From contig CM068587.1 in the NCBI GenBank assembly GCA_035048485.1, positions 52,009,501-52,073,500 of the forward strand: a DNA stretch of 64,000 bases, given 5' to 3'. The notes below the pieces were generated by a model, which worked only from the letters and a program-made list of their open reading frames with translations, was not told the DNA's origin and searched no databases. Each line of letters begins with the position of its first letter. Positions within the stretch are counted from its first letter, which is position 1. Both the position numbers and the translations under genes were made by a program. Positions 6,111 through 55,874 of this stretch are shown here, in pieces. This DNA comes from Pteria penguin (taxonomy: Eukaryota; Mollusca; Bivalvia; Pterioida; Pteriidae).

Positions 6111-8188
6111 TTTCACCCTGACTTCACTACAAAATTTTCTCAAAATTAAAATTGAAATTTGTGTTTACCAGAAAATAACATTGCAAATGACATAGCGAGA
6201 TTGCCTGCTGGAATGCTGCCCACCATGGGCTGGCTTGTCCATGTTCTCCTACAGTCTCAAATCCCACACTCCTGAGTGATCTTCACCATTGTTCCCATTG
6301 TACCATTGATGTGGGAGAGAGTAGGTGCAGCGCACTTTGGACATGTCCTGAAAAGCTCCATGAGATCATTCTCATACACAATATATTTCCTTGTCTGTAG
6401 GACTGTGACTTCAGGTGAATTGTCATCTACAGAGTTGTCATCTACAGAGCTGCAACAACATTGATATTTCTTCTAATAATAATATCATTTTAAATAAAAG
6501 ATCTCAAATGTGTTAAATTGTATTTAATAGGTAACAACAATGGATATTATATGATTGGCATGAGTACCTGTCATCATCAGAAGAATAGATACTCTCAGAA
6601 TCTGGATTAAAAGTTGGGTCATCCTTTAAGTTATCTATTGGTAGTTCAAGATTCTCTGTTTCATCATCTGATTCCTCAGCATCCACAGTATCTAATTTAT
6701 CTTGGGTTGAGGTTGAGCTACCAAGTAAATTGCACTGAATAGCCACACTTCTAGTCTTTGGCTTGCTATTCACTTGGATCCCTGAATAAATTAAAGATCA
6801 TAAAAAAATCTATTTTTAAGTTAATATTGAATATGTAAATACATGTATCTAATGAACACATATATCACTAAATTATTATGTAATATTATGTATATGTAGA
6901 CTTTGCATTTGTGATATTGATTAAATACATGTAACTAGTCAGGATATTTGTAATTTATTTATGTACAATATATGCACTAACCTTTATTACTGACAGAAGG
7001 CCGAGTTTGGGTTTTATGCGATTTTTTGTGTGGCTTACTCCCACTATACTGTGTTCCGACTTCTTTATTTTGTGCCTCACAGGCAATCTGCAAATAAAAT
7101 GTAGAAGTCAATAGCTATGTATTAAGTCAAAGAAAGAGTAAACATATGCAATGCAGAAAAAAACTGTAATTATGTATAACAGTTTACATTTGTACATTTT
7201 ATGTGGATACATAATGATACAGGCAACCATACCTCTTTGTTTCCGTACATATGGTCCAAGGGCTCATTTACTTGTTCATGAGGCAGTATATCATCATTTT
7301 TCTCATGGAGGACTGTCTGTTTCAGCTTCAAATAATAACTATAAATAACAATTTATTATTTCAATTTCAATTTTATGTTAATAAGAAAATTAATACATAT
7401 ACTAATAAAATCAAATCAGCCAACAGAGTCCTGCCAGGTGCCCAAACAGGAAGGAAAAAAAAAAAAGAAAGAAGGAAGGAAGGCTAATTTACTTGTAAAT
7501 AACTATTTAACACAAGAAATATGAAATCTACTATTGTTAAATTTGTTTTGTATGTAAATTTGTCATGTCTGTTGGAATTATCTTCCATAGATACTGGTTA
7601 ACAATAATAATGAAAAACTTCATATCATCATCATGCGCGGATCCAGAGGGGGGGACCGGGGGTCCGGACCCCCCCTGAGATTTTCAAGAGGTGGGGTCCA
7701 TGGACCATGGTCTCCACCTCTGACAGATCTCAGGGGGGGGGGGTCCAAATACGATATGAGGTCACTTTGTTTCATATGGATTTTTTCCGGCTCGCTTTCG
7801 CTCGCCAAATACATAAAACTTGTATGAGAGGATACATCAACAAATACATGTATACACATTAAATTGATATTTATGATAACAAGTTACTTTTATCAGTGCA
7901 ATGCCTTATATTACTCTACTTTCCATAAGCATATTCATGCTTGGATCCAAATATGTTATTGTTGCCAACTTCAATGTTTTACGATTATAAAGAAGTATTA
8001 TTAGATAAATATTTTAAAGTACCTTAAAATGGAGGTTCCACGGTCTATGGGTTTGTACATTAATTTATTATATTAAACTTAACAAAACGTAACTTAGTGA
8101 TTTTCATTTCAATATTTTCGATTACTTTACATTGTTTGTGGCAATATGTGTACGCCAAGGTTCGCAACTATTGCTTTTCCCATTTCGA

Positions 8189-8352
8189 CTTTGATACTAA
8201 ATAACGGATTGCTTCTTAACATAGGTGTCGCTTCGCAACTGCACAGAAAGCTACGCCGAACACGTGCTAATTTTGATACTGAATAACATATTGGTTCTTA
8301 ACATAGATGTCGCTTTGCAGCTGCACAGTAAGCTACGCCAAACACATGCTAT
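8189..8352 (+). repeat. two-unit 82-bp direct repeat in transposon leader
   Basis: Two adjacent, slightly diverged copies start with 'tttgatactaaataac' and 'tttgatactgaataac' and end with 'aacacgtgcta' and 'aacacatgcta'. They precede the OTU-like ORF. The frame is open through them without an ATG, so I treat them as 5' leader rather than protein. Confidence 0.75.
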
Positions 8353-8404
8353 CTTTTGTTTAGTTTGTCTTCAGTTTGTTGACTGGCTAAATCGCAACTT
8401 GCAA

Positions 8405-9214
8405 ATGGATGAAATAAAGCGTTGGGAATCAGTTCATTCAATTCTATCCAAAGCCGCAAGAGAGGGATGGAATTCATTAAAATTTCAGATATCAATCAGA
8501 GAGAAATCACTTATGCAGGCTGTTCTGCCTATAACTAAAGTAAAGTTCAGTGATTTATCGCCGTCGGTTAGGGAAGACTCAAAGTCCAGGCTACTTTTTC
8601 CAAATGACGTATCGCATAAAAATCTTACACCCATTGGGGTTTTAGGGGATGGGAATTGTTTTTTTCGGTCGATTTCCAACTCGCTGTTTGGTTCAGAAGG
8701 CAGACATGTCGAATGTCGAGTACGTTGTATGATCGAGCTAGTGATGAACACTAGTAGGTATCTCCGCCAAGACACATACACCAACATGTCGTCCAATCGG
8801 ACAGATATGCAGTATGTTCTTGAAACGACCATTTCTGACGAGGCTAGAGTGTCAGATGACATGACAAAATCACTGCAGAATGAGATATTACGATCGGTGA
8901 AAGACAGCTACTATTCGTCATTGATCCATCTCTATGCATCTGCAAATGCCTTGAATCGGCGAATTGTGACAATATTTCCGTCCATACAAAATGTGACAAT
9001 AAACAGGGAAATACATAATCAGACAATACGTCCTCTTCTTCAGACTTCACAACAAAACGATCCCCTTTTGTTCATTATGTGGACTCATACGTCCAATACA
9101 AATCTTATCAACTGGAGACCAAATCACTTCGTATCTTGTCATGAGAAAAACGATTCTTCTCAAGTATCTGCCTCGGAGGATCCGCCCTTGAAAAAAACAG
9201 AAAGTGTCGGATGA
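8405..9214 (+). CDS. OTU-like cysteine protease ORF of the hAT element
   Basis: The start is taken at the ATG at 8405 ('MDEIKRWESV'); upstream open sequence lacks ATG and is the duplicated leader. The product is about 269 residues. Residues 80-90 read 'GDGNCFFRSI', the OTU signature with catalytic Cys85, and the 'PNHF' near residue 241 supplies the expected His. The separation of about 155 residues fits one OTU domain. OTU enzymes cleave ubiquitin-type isopeptide bonds and are known as passengers in other transposons, notably some Helitrons. The frame ends at TGA in a seven-A run (9191-9197). With one A fewer, the reading would continue directly into the downstream transposase, so an ancestral OTU-transposase fusion is likely. 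Target and activity are unknown. Confidence 0.75.
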   Translation: MDEIKRWESVHSILSKAAREGWNSLKFQISIREKSLMQAVLPITKVKFSDLSPSVREDSKSRLLFPNDVSHKNLTPIGVLGDGNCFFRSISNSLFGSEGRHVECRVRCMIELVMNTSRYLRQDTYTNMSSNRTDMQYVLETTISDEARVSDDMTKSLQNEILRSVKDSYYSSLIHLYASANALNRRIVTIFPSIQNVTINREIHNQTIRPLLQTSQQNDPLLFIMWTHTSNTNLINWRPNHFVSCHEKNDSSQVSASEDPPLKKTESVG

Positions 9215-11612
9215 CTTTCCTGCTCAAGGCTGTGATTCTAATGAACCAGACGATCCAGATAAAGATGTGCAAAGTAAAGGTCTAGATGAGCACGAAATGT
9301 CAGAGGAATCTACTGGTAAGCCACTTTCTGGGTTTGACTTTGGTGAAATTGTTACTGGCGAAATATCTCTCTCCACTTTATCACCTTCAGAAAAGGTGAA
9401 ATTAGCAGGGGCAACATTCGAAACAGAAACACAGCAATATTTGCCGTTCAAGTCTGTTTTCGTTGGAAAAGACAAAAAAGAAAAAAAGCTTTACTTCCAA
9501 GCATCTTGGATGCAAAAACACAAATGGCTAATATTAAGCCATAAATTTCAAGGTGGCCTTTGTAAAATCTGTGTTCTTTTCCCGCAGATGGGTATGAGAA
9601 GTTATGAAAATTTTGTGTCAAAAACCATTCAAAAATTTCAAGAAAGCGGTGGGCAAGGACGGATCGTTGGCAAAACACGAGAACTCCGATTTTCATAAGG
9701 CGGCAAGTATAGAGTATCAGACTCTTAAATCAAGCTTGGCAAGACCAAAGACTACTCTACCTTACAAAATAAGCCAACAAAACAAAGAAATGTACGACAG
9801 AAACATGCAGCTGTTGTCAACGATAACGGAAACGGTTGTGCTTTGCGGGAAACAAAATATACCTCTGCGTGGACACAGAGACGATTCAACTAGCACTGCG
9901 TCAAATAAAGGTAACTTCCTAGCTATTTTGAATCTATTAGCAAGTCATGACAACCAGCTGGCAGAACATTTACAAGAATCACCAAAAAATGCCACTTATA
10001 CTAGTAAAAGCATTCAAAATGAAATAATCGATATCATTGGTCAAAACATTCGTAAAGAAATACTGTTTGGCCTTCGGGGTAAAGGATTCTACTCCATCAT
10101 CGCAGATGAAGTGACGGACAAATACGCAAACCAGGAAGTTTTGACATTGTGCTTGAGGTTTCTTGATGAAACAGCATCAGAACCTATCATTAGGGAAGAA
10201 TTTTTTGACTTTGGACTTTTGGAGGAGCAGCGATCTCGGAAAAAATTGTCGAAATTTTGCAAGAAAATGGTCTGTCTGTTGATAAAATTAGAGGCCAGGC
10301 TTATGACGGTGCTGCCTCAATGGCATCAGAAAAACAAGGTTGTCAAGGAAGAATCAAAGAACTGAATAAACTGGCTGTGTATACTCACTGCAAAAGCCAT
10401 GTGCTCAATCTGAGCATTGCACACGCTTGCAAACTTCCACTAGTCAGAAATATGATTGACGGAATAAATGCTACGTTTCTGTTCTTCGATTCTTCACCGA
10501 AGAGACAGCGATACTTTGAGCATGTGCTGTCCCAGCAAGAAACAGAGGTGACCCGAAAAAAACTGGTAGGTCTTTGTAAAACGAGATGGGTTGAGAGACA
10601 TACCTGCTTTGATACATTCAAGAGCATGTATGTTAGCATTACAATGTGTTTGCAGTATATTGTCAATCCTGGCATGGACGAAAACCTACAGGACAATTGG
10701 GCATGGGATGCCCAGACCAGAGTAACTGCCCAAGGCATTTTGGCCACATTGACATCCTTCTCTTTTCTCGTGACCTTCATGTGCGTTAAGGCCGTTCTCG
10801 AAATTGAAAAGCCAGTCGCAGCCAAGCTTCAAAAACATTACTTGGATATTTGTCAAGCTTTTGCATTAGTTGAGCAGCGCGTTGCCACAGTGAAAGAAAT
10901 GCGCACAAATATAAATGTTCAGTTTGAAAGTTTGTTCACTGAAAGCAAAAAGATGGCTGATGAGTTGGGAATCGACGTAAAGGTCCCAAGATTGTGTAAG
11001 AGGCAAACACAAAGAAGCAATGTTGGTGATGGCACTGATCCTTCTCATTATTTCAAAGCCAATGTTGCAATCCCTTTTCTTGATTATTTATATCAAGAAT
11101 TAAGTTGTAGGTTTAAGAAAGACGATGGCCCTGGCTATTCAGTATTATCGCTGGTCCCTGATCACATGGCCAAACTAAGTGATTCAGATGTTAGTCGTTT
11201 AGCAAATGACCTGATGTTTTGGGGGGTGGACTTGGAAAGTGTACAACCCGATGACCTTAAGTATGTGCTATTAGAGTGGAGGATGGCTTGTGCAAATATG
11301 AAAGAGGAGGACAGACCAGACAGTTTGCTCGGAACATTTAGAATAACTGATGGCGATATCTTCCCTGACGTTAAAACACTATTGCACATAGGCTGTACTT
11401 TGCCAGTGACCTCCAGTGAAGCTGAACGCTCTTTTTCTGGTTTAAGAAGAATAAAAAGCTACATGAGGTCAACGATGAATGAAGACCGGTTGGCAGCCCT
11501 GGCTCTTATGCACATTCACCATGACATGCACATTAGCATTAAAGAAATATGTGAAGAGTTCGCAAGGAAAAATAAGAGAAGATTGTTCAAGTCATGTATC
11601 TTATTTGATTAG
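9204..11612 (+). pseudogene. zinc-finger (TTF-type) hAT transposase, frameshifted
   Basis: Three overlapping frames together form one ZMYM/TTF-hAT-type transposase. First, 9204-9698 has an acidic N-terminus then 'WMQKHKWLILSHKFQGGLC' with 'CKICVLF' (TTF zinc finger). Second, 9604-10365 has 'KHENSDFHKA' (completing the finger) and 'SIIADEVTDKYANQEVL', the start of the RNase-H-like core with the first acidic residue. Third, 10257-11612 has 'GQAYDGAASMAS', 'THCKSHVLNL', 'CKTRWVERH' and a C-terminal 'TSSEAERSFSGLRRIKSYMR' dimerisation motif. The frame breaks near 9622 (in an A run) and near 10235. These disrupt transposase activity unless they are sequencing errors. The ORF continues to a natural TAG at 11612. 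Confidence 0.85.
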
Positions 11613-11654
11613 AATCACAACAAGATGAAGTTACAAACTCAATTCAATAAAAAA

Positions 11655-11732
11655 GAACCACAAAAAAAAAAAAAAAAACAAAAAAAACAAAAAAAACAAA
11701 AAAAAAAAAAACAAAACCAAAAAAAAAAAGGT
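11655..11732 (+). repeat. A-rich simple sequence at transposase 3' end
   Basis: An imperfect poly-A/CAAAA tract follows the transposase stop by about 45 bp. It could mark an old polyadenylation-proximal tract or slippage expansion; no retroposition signature was checked. Confidence 0.7.
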
Positions 11733-12206
11733 TCTATTGTGGAGGCCTCCTCGTGGCTAGAACTGGTAACGTGTCAATGAACGGCTAACATCCACCAATT
11801 TTTCGTCTTTAATGTCTCCCATATGTCTTTATGTTTATAGTTTTCCATCAATTTTGGGTATTGATTTCGCATTGTTTGCAAGCGCTTAAAACGTGGAAAT
11901 CCAGGAGCTTGCGGGGGCTTCGCCCCCTGGCCCCCCACCAGGGCTTCGCCCTGGACCTACTGGGGGCCTTAAGTCGGCCCCCAGACCCCCGGACTTTTGG
12001 ACCCCCCCCCCTGGTGAAAAAAGCTGGATCCGCGCCTGTCATCTATACATTTTATTAACATAGTTTTTTCCTGGGATAAAGCTATGAAGTTATAAGGCTA
12101 GTGTTGGATAAAGGTGTCTTTTTTCTACATTTAATAGGACGAAGTAATATAGTTAAAATGTTAACTTCTAAACGCAAATTTTAATCAGTTCAATTAATAT
12201 TCATAC

Positions 12207-12617
12207 CCTTTTGAACTCCCTCTTGCGGTATGCAGATCTCATAGCCTTTTTGTGGTTTGTCCCCGACACCGGCGTCACTGTCTCTGATGTATCTACGGGC
12301 ATATGGATCGTGGGTACTGCCGTTGGTAATAATACCTTCCTTGCGATTTCCATGCCCATAGCCTTCTTGATTTCATATTCCGGGGGATAGCAGGTGGAAA
12401 TGAAGTGCTTCTCGCACAAAACAGACTTAATGGTCGGTTTGGTGAAGTCCTTGCGTTTCACCTGCACGAACTTCACCCATTGCCGTCTAATTGATGGTCG
12501 ATCCGACTCTTTAGGGAATGTATGTAAAGAAAGATTGTCTCTGTGGGTAGAGTTACATCCCCAGGCCAAACAATACATCCCCGTTCTCTTCCGCTTACCC
12601 ACCGGGCCAGCAGACAT
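12207..12617 (-). CDS. THAP zinc-finger exon (first exon of the D(2)H transposase-derived gene)
   Basis: A 137-codon exon begins at an ATG at 12617 and ends at a donor 'aaaagg|gtatga'. The C2CH THAP finger is complete: Cys16-x4-Cys21, Trp47 and Cys68-x2-His71, followed by 'STCYPPE'. THAP domains bind DNA and are found both in transposases and in host transcription regulators. The exon ends in phase 0 after a basic 'YRKREFKR' segment. It joins in frame to the exon at 7325-7233, across an intron holding the 4.4-kb hAT element. Alternatively it could be a stand-alone THAP gene: reading on gives only V then a stop. Confidence 0.85.
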
Positions 12618-13325: not shown

Positions 13326-13773
13326 AAATGTAAACTACGAAAATAAGTAGTGTCACATTACTATGGCACTAACGACAAACACAACATCAGAAAAAATGCT
13401 AAAATAACACTTAAGTCAAACCCTTTTCGGTGATCTTTAACGTTACGAGCTCCACTCTGCAAAGGGAATAAGAGTGGCGTTAGTGTCAATTACGAAATTA
13501 ACATGGCTGTGGCACTAACAACAATGTACCACAACAGATATTCACGGACCCCGGAAATTCAGAAGTGAGACCAGGTGTCCGGGGAGGGGGGGGGGGGGGG
13601 CTTCTCCTGTTTGTCTAGCCACATCCACCGTAAATGCTCTTCAATACAGAAGAAACAAATATAATTCAGCACTGTATATATAAATGAATGTAAACAATCA
13701 CTGTGTAGAAAGTGTCAGTCACACAACATCACAAAAACTGGTACAATTAATAATTTCAATTAATAATCCTTCA

Positions 13774-14205
13774 ATCGCGGATTACTTTAGCATCATCTAT
13801 CCAAGTGAACTGGAGGTCAAAGAAACCACAGAAAGTAGTAATTCTACTTCGTATTTAGATATAAATTTGTCTTTCGACATTAATGGTCAATTGAACACCT
13901 CACTCTATGACAAACGTGACGATTTCAATTTCGCTATCACAAAATTTCCTTTCATAAGTAGCAACATTCCATCATCGCCCGCATACTGCGTATTCATATC
14001 TCAGTTAATACGTTATTCCAGAGCATGTTCAAATTACAATGACTTTGTTCTGAGGGCTAGCCGACTTTCAGTTAAGCTGCTCAACCAGGGTTATATATGT
14101 GCTAGACTAGCAACGTCACTGAGGAAGTTCTACGGTCGTTACGAGACTCTTATTACTCCATATGATATCTCGTTATCCAGACTTTTAAATGATATTCTGG
14201 ACTGA
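13774..14205 (+). pseudogene. Penelope-like reverse transcriptase, C-terminal fragment
   Basis: The open frame begins upstream at 13684, but recognisable RT starts near 13774. It contains 'IIYPSELEVKETT', 'TSYLDINLS', 'LYDKRDDFNFAI', 'FPF', 'SQLIRYSRACS' and 'SLRKFYGRYETLI'. This is the region just after the catalytic YIDD box in the RT at 50.4-51.0 kb, to which it is closely similar. Fingers, palm and YIDD are missing, so it is a truncated relic. I place it with Penelope-like elements by its resemblance to RTs of that type common in marine invertebrates. Confidence 0.8.
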
Positions 14206-46697: not shown

Positions 46698-48284
46698 TTA
46701 AAATTCACCCATCTGCCGTCTCCAGATACTACGTCTGTAGTTGTACGTTGGTGAATTGTAGTTCTTTTTTCCTTTGGAACTTCTTGGGGCATTAGAGCGT
46801 TCCGGATTCCAAACTGACGTATATTCGCGGTCAACATTTTCGTTCCAGTGACAGACTGTAAGTTCACTTCGTACGCGATACCCATCATCTGTGAACGAAA
46901 TCCGCTTGTCGTGGAACATATTGATTGTATTGTTGAAGCTTTCAACATAGTAAGAATTCTTCCCAAAGACGAAATCGCTGGCATTCTTATATAGTGTCGA
47001 ATTAGTTATTACGCCTCGGAGAAGGTTCCGCGACACGTCATCGGCGAGAACTTGTCGAGATGGTTCGTAGTTCGAATCCTTTTTACATCTCGATGATCTG
47101 TGACACCTCTCATGGTTGTTCTGGTAATGATTCAAGACATTGATGAGAAACAGTCTTGGTTTCTCAGGGTCACCCTCGCAATTTTTAACAGCCCAATGAT
47201 AAATTGTGGCGACAGGCTCGACTTTATCCTGTAGAAGCACCGACCAAGTTTTATTCTTCAAATATAAAGGACCACTTGAGACTTTTTTCATTGCTGCCTT
47301 TACCGATTTTACCCCGTGCCATAGATCGTTCTGGTTAAGGGTACCATGTGCATCTCTGACGAATTTATTTACTGACAGATTTCTGTCATGAGTATGAGTT
47401 TTTATCCATATACCCTCAGCTTCCACGGATTCATATATCCTCTGTGTCCCCAGAAGTTCATGCTTTTGCGATATAGGGTCATCTTGTTTTGTCACATGCT
47501 CACACCGAATAACGTTATGTGTTTTGTCGCCAATCGCAACTACACTTGTGTCTTTTGCATTTTTTCGCCAGCCATGCCGAGCGTCCGTCATAATGTCATT
47601 TCCATCTCCAGGTGAAAAAGCAACTTCTCCCCCTAGAGCCAGACTAATACTTTCTTCATATTCTTCTTCCACGTGGGGTTTTATGCTTTTGAAGTATTGC
47701 CTTCGCTTTTGAACTCCCAACGTTCCGCATCCCGTGCCGTTCGTGAATCGGATGTAGTGTATAGGTAACATACCGCTATACGTAAATCCACGATAAACCC
47801 TTTTGTTCACGAGATATTCCTTGTTTGGCAGATAAGGTGATGAAGACCAAAGTATACTGTGGTTTTTTGTCACATTGCATTTCATATTGATGGCAGCTAC
47901 ATGCCCCTTCATCGTTAGTTTCCTCGCTGTGAGTTTGCCATCACAAACGCGAACATGGTTTTCTACAACTTCTGTCAGCCGCCCTAACGAGGACTTTGTC
48001 GTCAAGAAAATTTGTTCGTTTGTCTCCTCTGTTTCACAACAATGAAAAGTGTTCATTTCGCCTCCACTCAATTCACGTGTTTTAACCTTTCCTCTTCGTT
48101 GCTCTAGAAATGATTTTAGCAATTCCTTCAATATTTCTGCATTGTTTACGGGTTTGTTATATTTTCGCACCAATATTCCTCGAACATCCGAAAGTTTCGA
48201 AAATATAGAATTCTTTGTTTCTTCGCCTCCAGGAATTGATATTTTAAAAGAAGGTGGTTGTTTTGATTCTGGATTCGCCATCAT
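46698..48284 (-). CDS. D(2)H-class (Kolobok-like) transposase
   Basis: A single open frame of 528 residues from an ATG at 48284. Candidate catalytic residues: Asp234 in 'MTDARHGWRKN', Asp300 in 'THTHDRNLSVNKF', Asp320-x2-His323 in 'DLWHGVKS', and Glu448 in 'YYVESFNN'. 'CHWNEN' follows. The set lines up with the THAP-linked transposase at 3.7-12.6 kb (DSPGHSAK; TDRH; DVWH; LEGYH; LHYNEN), so both belong to one family, most likely Kolobok-like. There is no THAP domain here: the N-terminus is unrelated and basic/acidic mixed. Unlike most transposon genes in the window it is intact and intronless, so it may be recently active or under selection. It is divergent from an accessory gene that could be its partner. 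Reaction by family: cut-and-paste DNA strand transfer in the nucleus. Confidence 0.8.
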   Translation of the reverse strand: MMANPESKQPPSFKISIPGGEETKNSIFSKLSDVRGILVRKYNKPVNNAEILKELLKSFLEQRRGKVKTRELSGGEMNTFHCCETEETNEQIFLTTKSSLGRLTEVVENHVRVCDGKLTARKLTMKGHVAAINMKCNVTKNHSILWSSSPYLPNKEYLVNKRVYRGFTYSGMLPIHYIRFTNGTGCGTLGVQKRRQYFKSIKPHVEEEYEESISLALGGEVAFSPGDGNDIMTDARHGWRKNAKDTSVVAIGDKTHNVIRCEHVTKQDDPISQKHELLGTQRIYESVEAEGIWIKTHTHDRNLSVNKFVRDAHGTLNQNDLWHGVKSVKAAMKKVSSGPLYLKNKTWSVLLQDKVEPVATIYHWAVKNCEGDPEKPRLFLINVLNHYQNNHERCHRSSRCKKDSNYEPSRQVLADDVSRNLLRGVITNSTLYKNASDFVFGKNSYYVESFNNTINMFHDKRISFTDDGYRVRSELTVCHWNENVDREYTSVWNPERSNAPRSSKGKKNYNSPTYNYRRSIWRRQMGEF

Positions 48285-50129: not shown

Positions 50130-50990
50130 TTTGGATTTATCCATCATCTTTACAATTCAAGAATGTCACTTGCATCACATTTTTTGACTTTTCGACTCTC
50201 TATACAACTATTCCTTATCAAAAACTAAAGAACAGAATAACATCAATTATTCAAAACGCCTTCTTTAACAAAAAGGGAATTCGCAGATACAAATACCTCG
50301 TTTTAGGCCACAACGACACATATTTTGTAAAGGAACAGTCTGATTCCAGCAGCAAGTATACAGAAAAAGAGATTTTCCAAATGTTAGAATTTTTTTAGAT
50401 AATATTTTTGTGATATTTGGTGGGAAAGTGTTCCAACAGATTGTTGGCATTCCTATGGGTACTACTTGCGCGCCTCTTCTGGCCGACATATTTTTGTACT
50501 CTTACGAGGCAGAATTCATACAGTCTCTGCTCTCTAAAGGCAATAACCAATTAGCATCTCGGTTCAACTTTACATACAGATACATCGATGATGTTTTGTC
50601 GATTAACAACCCTGTATTTGAGGATCACTTCAACATCATATATCCAAAGGAACTCGAGATAAAAGAAACTACAGGGAGGGCATCTTCTGCTTCATACCTC
50701 GATATACTGCCATCAATTGGTGACGATGGTTCATTAGTAACCTCTCTCTATGACAAACGTGGCGATTACAATTTCATTACTACCAACTTCCCTTTTCTGA
50801 GTAGCAACATACCTTCCTCTCCCGCATATGACGTCTTCATTTCACAACTTATACGCTATGCCAGGGCATGCTCTAAATACGAAAATTTCGTCCTGAGAGC
50901 GAGGATTCTTGCCACGAAACTACTCTCACATGGATATATTGAGGAACGTTTGAAATTGTCACTGAGGAAGTCGTTATAGGGATCTATTGC
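50130..50990 (+). pseudogene. Penelope-like reverse transcriptase, catalytic C-terminal half
   Basis: Two frames (50096-50398 and 50410-50979) carry the palm and thumb. The first has 'FFDFSTLYTTIPYQKLKNRI'. After a T-run frameshift near 50390 come 'QIVGIPMGTTCAPLLADIFL', 'RYIDDVLSINN' (the catalytic Asp pair), 'IIYPKELEIKETT', 'YDKRGDYNFITTNFPF' and 'SQLIRYARACSKYENFVLR'. It ends at a TAG after 'SLRKS', where the 13.8-kb relative continues 'FYGRY', so the 3' end is also broken. It complements the N-terminal half at 45.7-46.3 kb. I see no GIY-YIG endonuclease domain in the window. Confidence 0.87.
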
Positions 50991-54894: not shown

Positions 54895-55874
54895 GAAGCA
54901 GTTTTCGTGCCATTTTAACGAAGGAAAAACTTTTCTCGTTCGAACGAGAAATTTATCTCGTTCGAACGAGATAACTTTCTCGTTCGAATGAGAAATCAGC
55001 TCGTTCGAACGAGAAACTATCATATACCATAGTCTGCAGTGTAAGTATTATTAACCGATAAAAAGAAAAGAAATAACGTACATCAATAAATCTTTTGTTA
55101 TTTCTTTAGTAGAGGATGTTTGATCGTTTAAATAATTACATTTGGTCGCGTTTAGCCTGAATTTAATTGAAAGGCATTATACGTATTATTTCAGTCTATC
55201 TAAAGTATGTTTGTAACATTTGATTTGGAGCCTCATCTTCTCCCTTTTATATTTATGCTTTAAGTCACTGGAATAAAACTAACTTGGCTCAGTAACCTCA
55301 CCAATTAATATTAATCATTAATGAAATAATAATGCATGATTATAAGTGTTTTACTGTTTAGCAATAAGTACCATTCAGTGTATGTTTCAATTCTGAAATG
55401 TATAAATCATAATTATAGTTATTATAACACTTTTAATTACAAGAGGAGGGCAAAATATCTCTGATGTCATGCGCCCCCCCCCCCTTTTTTCCCCTCGCAG
55501 TCATCTCCTTCTTCGAAATTTAATTAATCATACTTTAAGTTAAGTATTTCCTTTCTATTGATAAGCCGTGTATTACAGAAAAACATGTGTGAAGTGAATC
55601 TACATTTATATGAATTTTAACTTGAAATATCTGCAATTATGTGTATATAAATGTATCACGTTATGTATCAATTGAAATAATCATACTTTTTTAAATAACC
55701 AAATACCTTAATTCATATATAATAGTTTCTCGTTCCAACGATATTTTTTTCTCGTTCCAACGAGATAACTGTCTCGTTCCAACGAGATTTTTTGTCGTTC
55801 AAACGAGAAAGTTTCTCGTTCGATTGAGATAAAAAAAAATATTTTCTTCTTTAAAATGGCACGAAAATGGCTTC
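54895..55874. mobile_element. ~1-kb foldback element with clustered palindromes
   Basis: Inverted ends of about 30 bp: 'ttttcgtgccattttaac' then 'gaagg' on the left, and 'ttcttctttaaaatggc' then 'acgaaaa' on the right; outer 'gaagc'/'gcttc' also match. Just inside each end lie arrays of a near-perfect palindrome. On the left (54934-55013) they are four 'ctcgttcgaacgaga'-type units. On the right (55725-55830) they are variants 'ctcgttccaacgaga' and 'tcgttcaaacgagaa'. No ORF lies in the ~700 bp between. The architecture resembles a non-autonomous DNA transposon with subterminal transposase-binding sites. Confidence 0.72.

Follow-up and report, generated by a model that had tools for sequence, protein, structure and literature searches.

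Does an OTU-like reading frame that lies directly ahead of a hAT transposase belong to the same gene, and if so, what could a transposon gain from carrying it? The question is raised by a stretch of 64,000 nucleotides from the bivalve Pteria penguin (contig CM068587.1 of assembly GCA_035048485.1, positions 52,009,501 to 52,073,500, or G000:C8:52009501-52073500 of the 838-Mb genome; the window hereafter), in which a sequence-only reading had placed a hAT transposon with an OTU domain in front of its transposase. We conclude that this element is almost certainly a member of a young family of cut-and-paste transposons, whose sole recognised gene encodes one protein of 1,071 residues with the order OTU, linker, putative TTF finger and Hermes-like hAT transposase. 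The window holds a broken copy of this gene. Taken as a whole, the explanation we favour, at a probability of roughly 0.6, is that the OTU of the 1,071-residue protein is a cis-acting deubiquitinase that would spare the transposase from degradation.

The matching inverted ends that had been reported are present in the window, and the same outer borders are found in other copies (Table 1). The OTU open reading frame (ORF) matches PF02338 with an E-value of 4.8e-8 and 34.0 bits (cut-off 23.3), and the OTU of an intact copy reaches 31.4 bits against the same cut-off. The signature had been described as having a His about 155 residues on, which agrees with what we find, the Cys of GDGNC being residue 85 and the His of PNHF residue 241, 156 apart. 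Likewise, the transposase does stand directly after the OTU, as matches to DUF4371 (E=9e-11) and Dimer_Tnp_hAT (E=2e-8) follow the OTU ORF.

The sequence-only reading also took a run of seven As as the only barrier between the two parts, and held that six As would join them. The first claim stands in part: the OTU and TTF frames do part at this run (9191-9197), but the window transposase has two further breaks, one between 9598 and 9695 and one between 10209 and 10362, where the frames overlap, so that three indels shift the frame relative to an intact copy. The second is borne out, since seven of the nine copies examined have six As (the window and L021 have seven), and two other copies carry a single frame of 1,071 residues. 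The seven-A run is a difference of individual copies within lysine codons and not the state of the family. A programmed frameshift at the run, an idea prompted by P0031 (79% identical), which ends with a PPLKK-TES-type tail like the window OTU ORF, was rejected as the norm because most copies and five named proteins (P0030, P0001, P0002, P0032 and P0033) read through. Homopolymer slippage or sequencing error fits the variation better; a low-level recoding role of the run is conceivable.

A protein search of the genome gave at least 132 OTU matches among the best candidates scored. When a close copy is defined as a place with 86% identity or more to the OTU of the window, 19 are found among the matches listed, and every one of them has a hAT match 0.9–1.1 kb downstream on the same strand. 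Copies that share the inverted ends and one uninterrupted OTU-TTF-hAT frame, on which the earlier reading had staked its proposal, do exist: two close copies, L009 and L046, keep the whole frame of 1,071 residues, and homologous proteins of other species keep the order. For 16 of these 19 close copies both ends could be placed; for the other three, no 3' end was found in the fetched sequence. An exact flanking duplication is seen in 14 of these 16, 11 times with a length of 5 bp and three times with 6 bp (at C3:34.02 and C5:56, where a single base of the 3' end differs, it was identified by visual inspection); the remaining two are the window copy, with TCAT (4 bp) only, and one copy with no duplication. 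The duplications are sequence footprints that point to repeated insertion.

Nine copies, window included, were compared at the DNA level, and L020 was left out of the divergence estimate and of the ratio of non-synonymous to synonymous differences (pN/pS), as it contains an insertion that misaligned it. The other eight differ from the column majority by 0.18–0.43%, which indicates a young burst. Over the genome there are at least 107 OTU places; at 31 of them a hAT match follows downstream on the same strand in less than 3 kb, and at one more it follows at 5.5 kb. Counted over all the matches listed, none of the 107 has a hAT within 6 kb in any other arrangement. The other 75, among those examined, are fragments or other OTU carriers.

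The closest known system is the Hermes-like, DUF4371 branch of the hAT superfamily, members of which are named '52 kDa repressor of the inhibitor of the protein kinase-like' in some sources. The hAT transposase domain and the C-terminal dimerisation region are present, the CxxC...H pattern of a putative N-terminal finger is aligned in the relatives (in an intact copy zf-C17orf113 matches weakly, E=0.048, below the cut-off), and short terminal inverted repeats recur in the copies. Classic Ac/Hermes groups make target-site duplications of 8 bp, while some hAT groups (Repbase hAT5/hAT6) use 5–6 bp. Since no 8-bp duplication was found in the 16 two-ended copies, the hAT label rests on the transposase and not on the duplication length. 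The element thus differs from the classic members in its shorter duplications of 5–6 bp, and from the superfamily in the extra N-terminal OTU of the same polypeptide.

The fusion is not confined to this family. With the read-through product of the window as query (X at the breaks), a protein database search returned 29 proteins at E<=1e-3 among 7,218 candidates. P0001 (1,076 residues) and P0002 (1,079 residues) match 99% of the query and carry OTU, DUF4371 and Dimer_Tnp_hAT, and the closest named OTU relative is P0030 of Pinctada imbricata, with 90% identity. Outside the window family, the fusion recurs at 38–58% identity in the same domain order. Remains of an OTU are found in P0004, P0006, P0007, P0008, P0019, P0020, P0022, P0024 and P0029 with a profile that includes most of them; a profile of ten canonical OTUs still scores the N-terminally cut proteins, from 1e-28 (P0007) to 5e-5 (P0029, Hydra), these being E-values for 36 sequences. 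In the tree, P0012, a shorter model with the label Mytilus edulis, is nearly identical to P0007. The remaining hAT proteins of this search have no OTU-profile match better than E=0.04.

In addition, the genome of Pteria penguin holds a second OTU-hAT family (L010/L027, L011/L028 and L033-L036), whose hAT is 39–43% identical over the main match. Its OTU is split, with about 2.2 kb between the two pieces, the first of which breaks off directly after GDGNCLYNCVSIFLSG, and the gap just after the catalytic Cys box is apparently an intron. An intron at this place would account for the several ORF-based proteins whose start lies directly behind the Cys box, and ORF-based gene calls would miss the first exon of the second family. 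P0003, P0005 and P0009, which stand among OTU-bearing relatives in the tree, show no visible OTU, but they are ORF-only predictions, in which a missing OTU need not be a true absence.

Homologues without an OTU, or with it in unrelated positions, which the earlier reading had named as the case that would speak for an accidental fusion, were not seen in the family or among its nearest relatives, although more distant DUF4371 hATs of the genome show no OTU in the upstream sequence fetched, and one family has a VTD-like domain instead. An OTU ancestral to all DUF4371 hATs is not supported, as several families have no OTU in the fetched upstream sequence. A weak OTU-like fragment at L024 725-1044 lies near an OTU-less hAT copy, outside the stretch common with L037, and was not counted. 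The transposase trees appear compatible with either one gain of the OTU followed by losses or two gains, and the OTU tree, in which the root is not placed, fits co-inheritance of the OTU with the transposase.

As to the OTU itself, Cys85 is kept in all ten alignment rows that span the site (seven of the 17 rows begin downstream of it) and His241 in 17 of 17, and the OTU core is better conserved than the linker, which is poorly conserved. The predicted structure takes an OTU fold, and in the model of a relative the OTU and Hermes folds are predicted in one chain. Predicted fold and catalytic Cys and His are what the transposon OTU has in common with OTUD3, OTUD5, A20 and VCPIP1, with sequence identity of about 15–20%; unlike these, it belongs to a transposon and is joined to the transposase in one protein. 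The domain is probably an active deubiquitinase.

Further evidence comes from a sister family. Among hAT matches at 34–35% identity, six belong to one further family, with open frames of up to 1,059–1,079 residues. The two members read, L065 (334-3510 of G000:C1:24199300-24203100) and L066 (G000:C5:49879700-49883400), have no OTU, and a VTD-like (herpes-tegument-like deubiquitinase) domain stands at the N-terminus where the OTU family has its OTU. Its catalytic Cys lies in a GSQC at residue 53 of the frame, and its Asp-x-His is a DSH at residue 180. A sequence search of the PDB aligned both catalytic sites with those of the herpesviral large tegument deneddylase (chain 6ppb, E=0.0013). In the transposase tree, the VTD family groups with the Branchiostoma protein P0021 (support 100) and lies outside the group (support 93) formed by both OTU-bearing clades and several proteins without a visible OTU. 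Unrelated deubiquitinase-like domains are thus found at the same place in related transposases, which is the strongest pointer that ubiquitin removal itself has been selected, that is, the activity and not the fold.

The VTD-like domain occurs at eight places of the genome with 97–100% identity, six with a hAT within 3 kb and the other two within 13 kb. At 57 weaker places (E-values of 2e-14 to 4e-4, about 21–39% identity), we regard the domain as the VTD that Erven et al. report from Helitrons (PMC9741609); 56 of these places have a Helitron_like_N match within 6 kb downstream on the same strand, as counted with 79 of the 108 Helitron_like_N matches. These downstream matches often lie in long open frames of up to about 2,800 residues, that is, there are many deubiquitinase-bearing Helitrons. 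For the OTU, on the other hand, a role as Helitron passenger was rejected, with none of the 107 places (window included) lying within 8 kb of any of the 108 Helitron_like_N matches.

Animal DNA transposons with OTU and/or VTD domains of deubiquitinase type are already known in the Helentrons and Helitrons, with molluscs included for VTD (PMC9741609, PMC4067079), and the OTU on Helentrons is established (PMC4067079, PMC6431247, PMC9741609). Those are rolling-circle RepHel elements, whereas the OTU-hAT is a cut-and-paste element with no Helitron_like_N nearby. What appears to be new here is a deubiquitinase-carrying DNA transposon of the cut-and-paste type. No description of an OTU-hAT or VTD-hAT was found in the open-access literature searched, partly by titles and abstract openings; Repbase reports and most subscription journals lie outside it, and an earlier description may exist. 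PMC9741609, whose main text does not use the word hAT, mentions fusions of cnidarian VTDs to domains associated with transposons.

Related OTUs are also met in other settings. In P0036, the OTU (32% identity to that of P0002, E=2.7e-11) is again part of a mobile-element-like protein, but it is C-terminal and the other, transposase-like part is not recognised as hAT; in Pfam, P0036 and L045 have no transposase family above cut-off. Relatives of this type in the genome are L044 with L043 (G000:C10:14772400-14778700, at C10:14.77 Mb, with an open frame of 1,145 residues) and L045 (G000:C8:4978300-4982800, at C8:4.98 Mb). The Pinctada protein P0030 is named 'Vertnin' in UniRef. Vertnin (VRTN), likened here by name and description, is a vertebrate host gene described as an inactive OTU-like homologue (PMC10318531), for which a transposase-like helix-turn-helix motif is reported (PMC3024977); unlike the transposon OTU, it is without the catalytic residues.

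What could the OTU do for the element? The earlier reading had proposed that it might stabilise the transposase or work against host silencing. According to the explanation we favour, the fused OTU would travel with the transposase, the fusion in cis placing the enzyme on it, and would remove ubiquitin from it; the transposase would thereby escape clearance by the proteasome before or during transposition and live longer. That such self-deubiquitination is the main role of the domain we hold at about even odds, judging from the architecture and, by analogy, from the biochemistry of the related Helitron VTDs in PMC9741609. The most serious rival has the deubiquitinase act on chromatin or on repair factors, such as ubiquitinated histones and repair proteins, either at the donor or at the target site, so as to open chromatin, evade silencing or bias repair. 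The OTU is fused in cis to a DNA-binding transposase, several relatives have in common a lysine-rich linker stretch that we ourselves read as a nuclear signal, VTDs that appear to be domesticated are expressed in the male germline according to Erven et al. (PMC9741609), and Thomas et al. give a chromatin-signalling role as one option for the Helentron OTU (PMC4067079). The fusion in cis, however, fits self-deubiquitination equally well, and we consider the chromatin or repair role unlikely.

A catalytically dispensable OTU, serving as a module for ubiquitin binding, dimerisation or targeting, is improbable: inactive OTU-like proteins including vertnin do exist (PMC10318531), but the Cys and His are kept in all the rows that span them, and the unrelated domain at the same place in the sister family has a Cys and an Asp-x-His of its own. 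It is still more improbable that the OTU works as a polyprotein-type protease that releases itself from the transposase. Although cleavage of the protein that the element itself encodes has been put forward, among other options, for Helentron OTUs (PMC4067079), the eukaryotic OTU families in PMC10318531 release ubiquitin from proteins, and no conserved cut site is apparent in the linker, because the linker is poorly conserved. Finally, an accidental read-through of a captured host OTU fragment beside the transposase, without any role, is hardly credible and already largely refuted, for although the window copy is broken at the OTU/transposase junction and a P0036-type protein has a related OTU on another transposase-like part, the arrangement is kept in 19 of the 19 close copies listed, in two intact frames, in other species and in a second family with an apparent intron, and the OTU core is conserved better than the linker.

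Several observations weigh against the view of the OTU as a deubiquitinase in the service of the transposase. Transposon OTU domains have not been tested for activity according to PMC9741609. Among the close copies, 17 of 19 are without a full-length frame, and some of the frame-breaking indels may be assembly errors. The changes among the eight young copies look neutral (pN/pS 0.84 over the ORF and 1.21 in the OTU, the latter from 21 changes), as expected after insertion, and purifying selection is therefore read from the conservation between families alone. The fetched upstream sequence of other DUF4371 hATs of the genome (L013/L023, L024/L037, L038-L042 and L014) has no OTU, so that an OTU is not essential to hATs. 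As for the sister family, Herpes_teg_N (PF04843) reaches only 17.0 bits on L065 334-1260 (cut-off 25, E=0.0047), and it is listed neither for the full-length scan of L065 nor for L066.

The role of deubiquitinases on Helentrons is given as open in PMC9741609, and a hAT this compact, with a single gene, recent activity and some copies still uninterrupted, provides a simple system for asking whether ubiquitin limits transposition in animals. The OTU-hAT is also a candidate source of OTU-like host genes. More tentatively, and a little short of an even chance, we suggest that hATs took up deubiquitinases of two unrelated kinds, OTU and VTD, each in the same N-terminal place and in parallel to the Helentrons, that ubiquitin removal is a general, repeatedly selected aid to animal DNA transposition, and that such transposons seed host genes, vertnin possibly among them.

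Table 1 Parts of the OTU-hAT copy in the window (positions are those of the window)
Feature	Position	Strand	Basis or remark
Whole OTU-hAT element, degenerate copy	7632..12038	+	borders common to other copies
5' terminal inverted repeat CATGCGCGGATCCAG	7632..7646	+	15 bp, 93% complementary to 3' end; recurs in copies
3' terminal inverted repeat CTGGATCCGCGCCTG	12024..12038	-	15 bp; recurs in copies
TCAT, possible eroded target-site duplication, left, inside ATC microsatellite	7628..7631	.	only 4 bp; 5–6 bp in 14 of 15 other two-ended copies
TCAT, possible eroded target-site duplication, right	12039..12042	.	sequence
Subterminal palindrome, two 35-nt arms, 83%	7669..7739	.	repeat analysis
Subterminal repeat, inverted to 11995-12013	7731..7749	+	repeat analysis
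Subterminal repeat, inverted to 7731-7749	11995..12013	-	repeat analysis
Tandem duplication, 2 x 82 bp, directly upstream of ATG	8190..8351	+	possible promoter or leader (putative role)
OTU ORF, 269 residues; Cys85 at 8657-8659, His241 at 9125-9127	8405..9214	+	
A7 run where OTU and TTF frames part, within codons of the lysine-rich KKxK stretch common to several relatives	9191..9197	+	
Second reading frame: linker, then start of putative TTF-type zinc finger (CKIC...)	9192..9695	+	alignment with relatives
Third reading frame: putative zinc finger, remaining part, and hAT domain, N-terminal half (DUF4371)	9598..10362	+	overlapping frames, Pfam
C-terminal hAT domain with Dimer_Tnp_hAT, through stop codon	10209..11612	+	overlapping frames, Pfam

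Elsewhere in the window, a THAP-domain ORF (PF05485, E=2.2e-14) lies on the minus strand at 12201-12617, about 160 bp past the 3' end of the element. Two ORFs at 13684-14205 and 50410-50979 have similar peptide stretches, the second matching RVT_1 (reverse transcriptase) weakly with E=0.0033, below the cut-off, and a minus-strand ORF of 528 residues at 46698-48284 has no Pfam match at E<=0.1. A palindromic unit of 22 bp (CGAACGAGAAACTTATCTCGTT type) is repeated in tandem in two arrays, at 54919-55018 and 55724-55832, about 0.7 kb apart.

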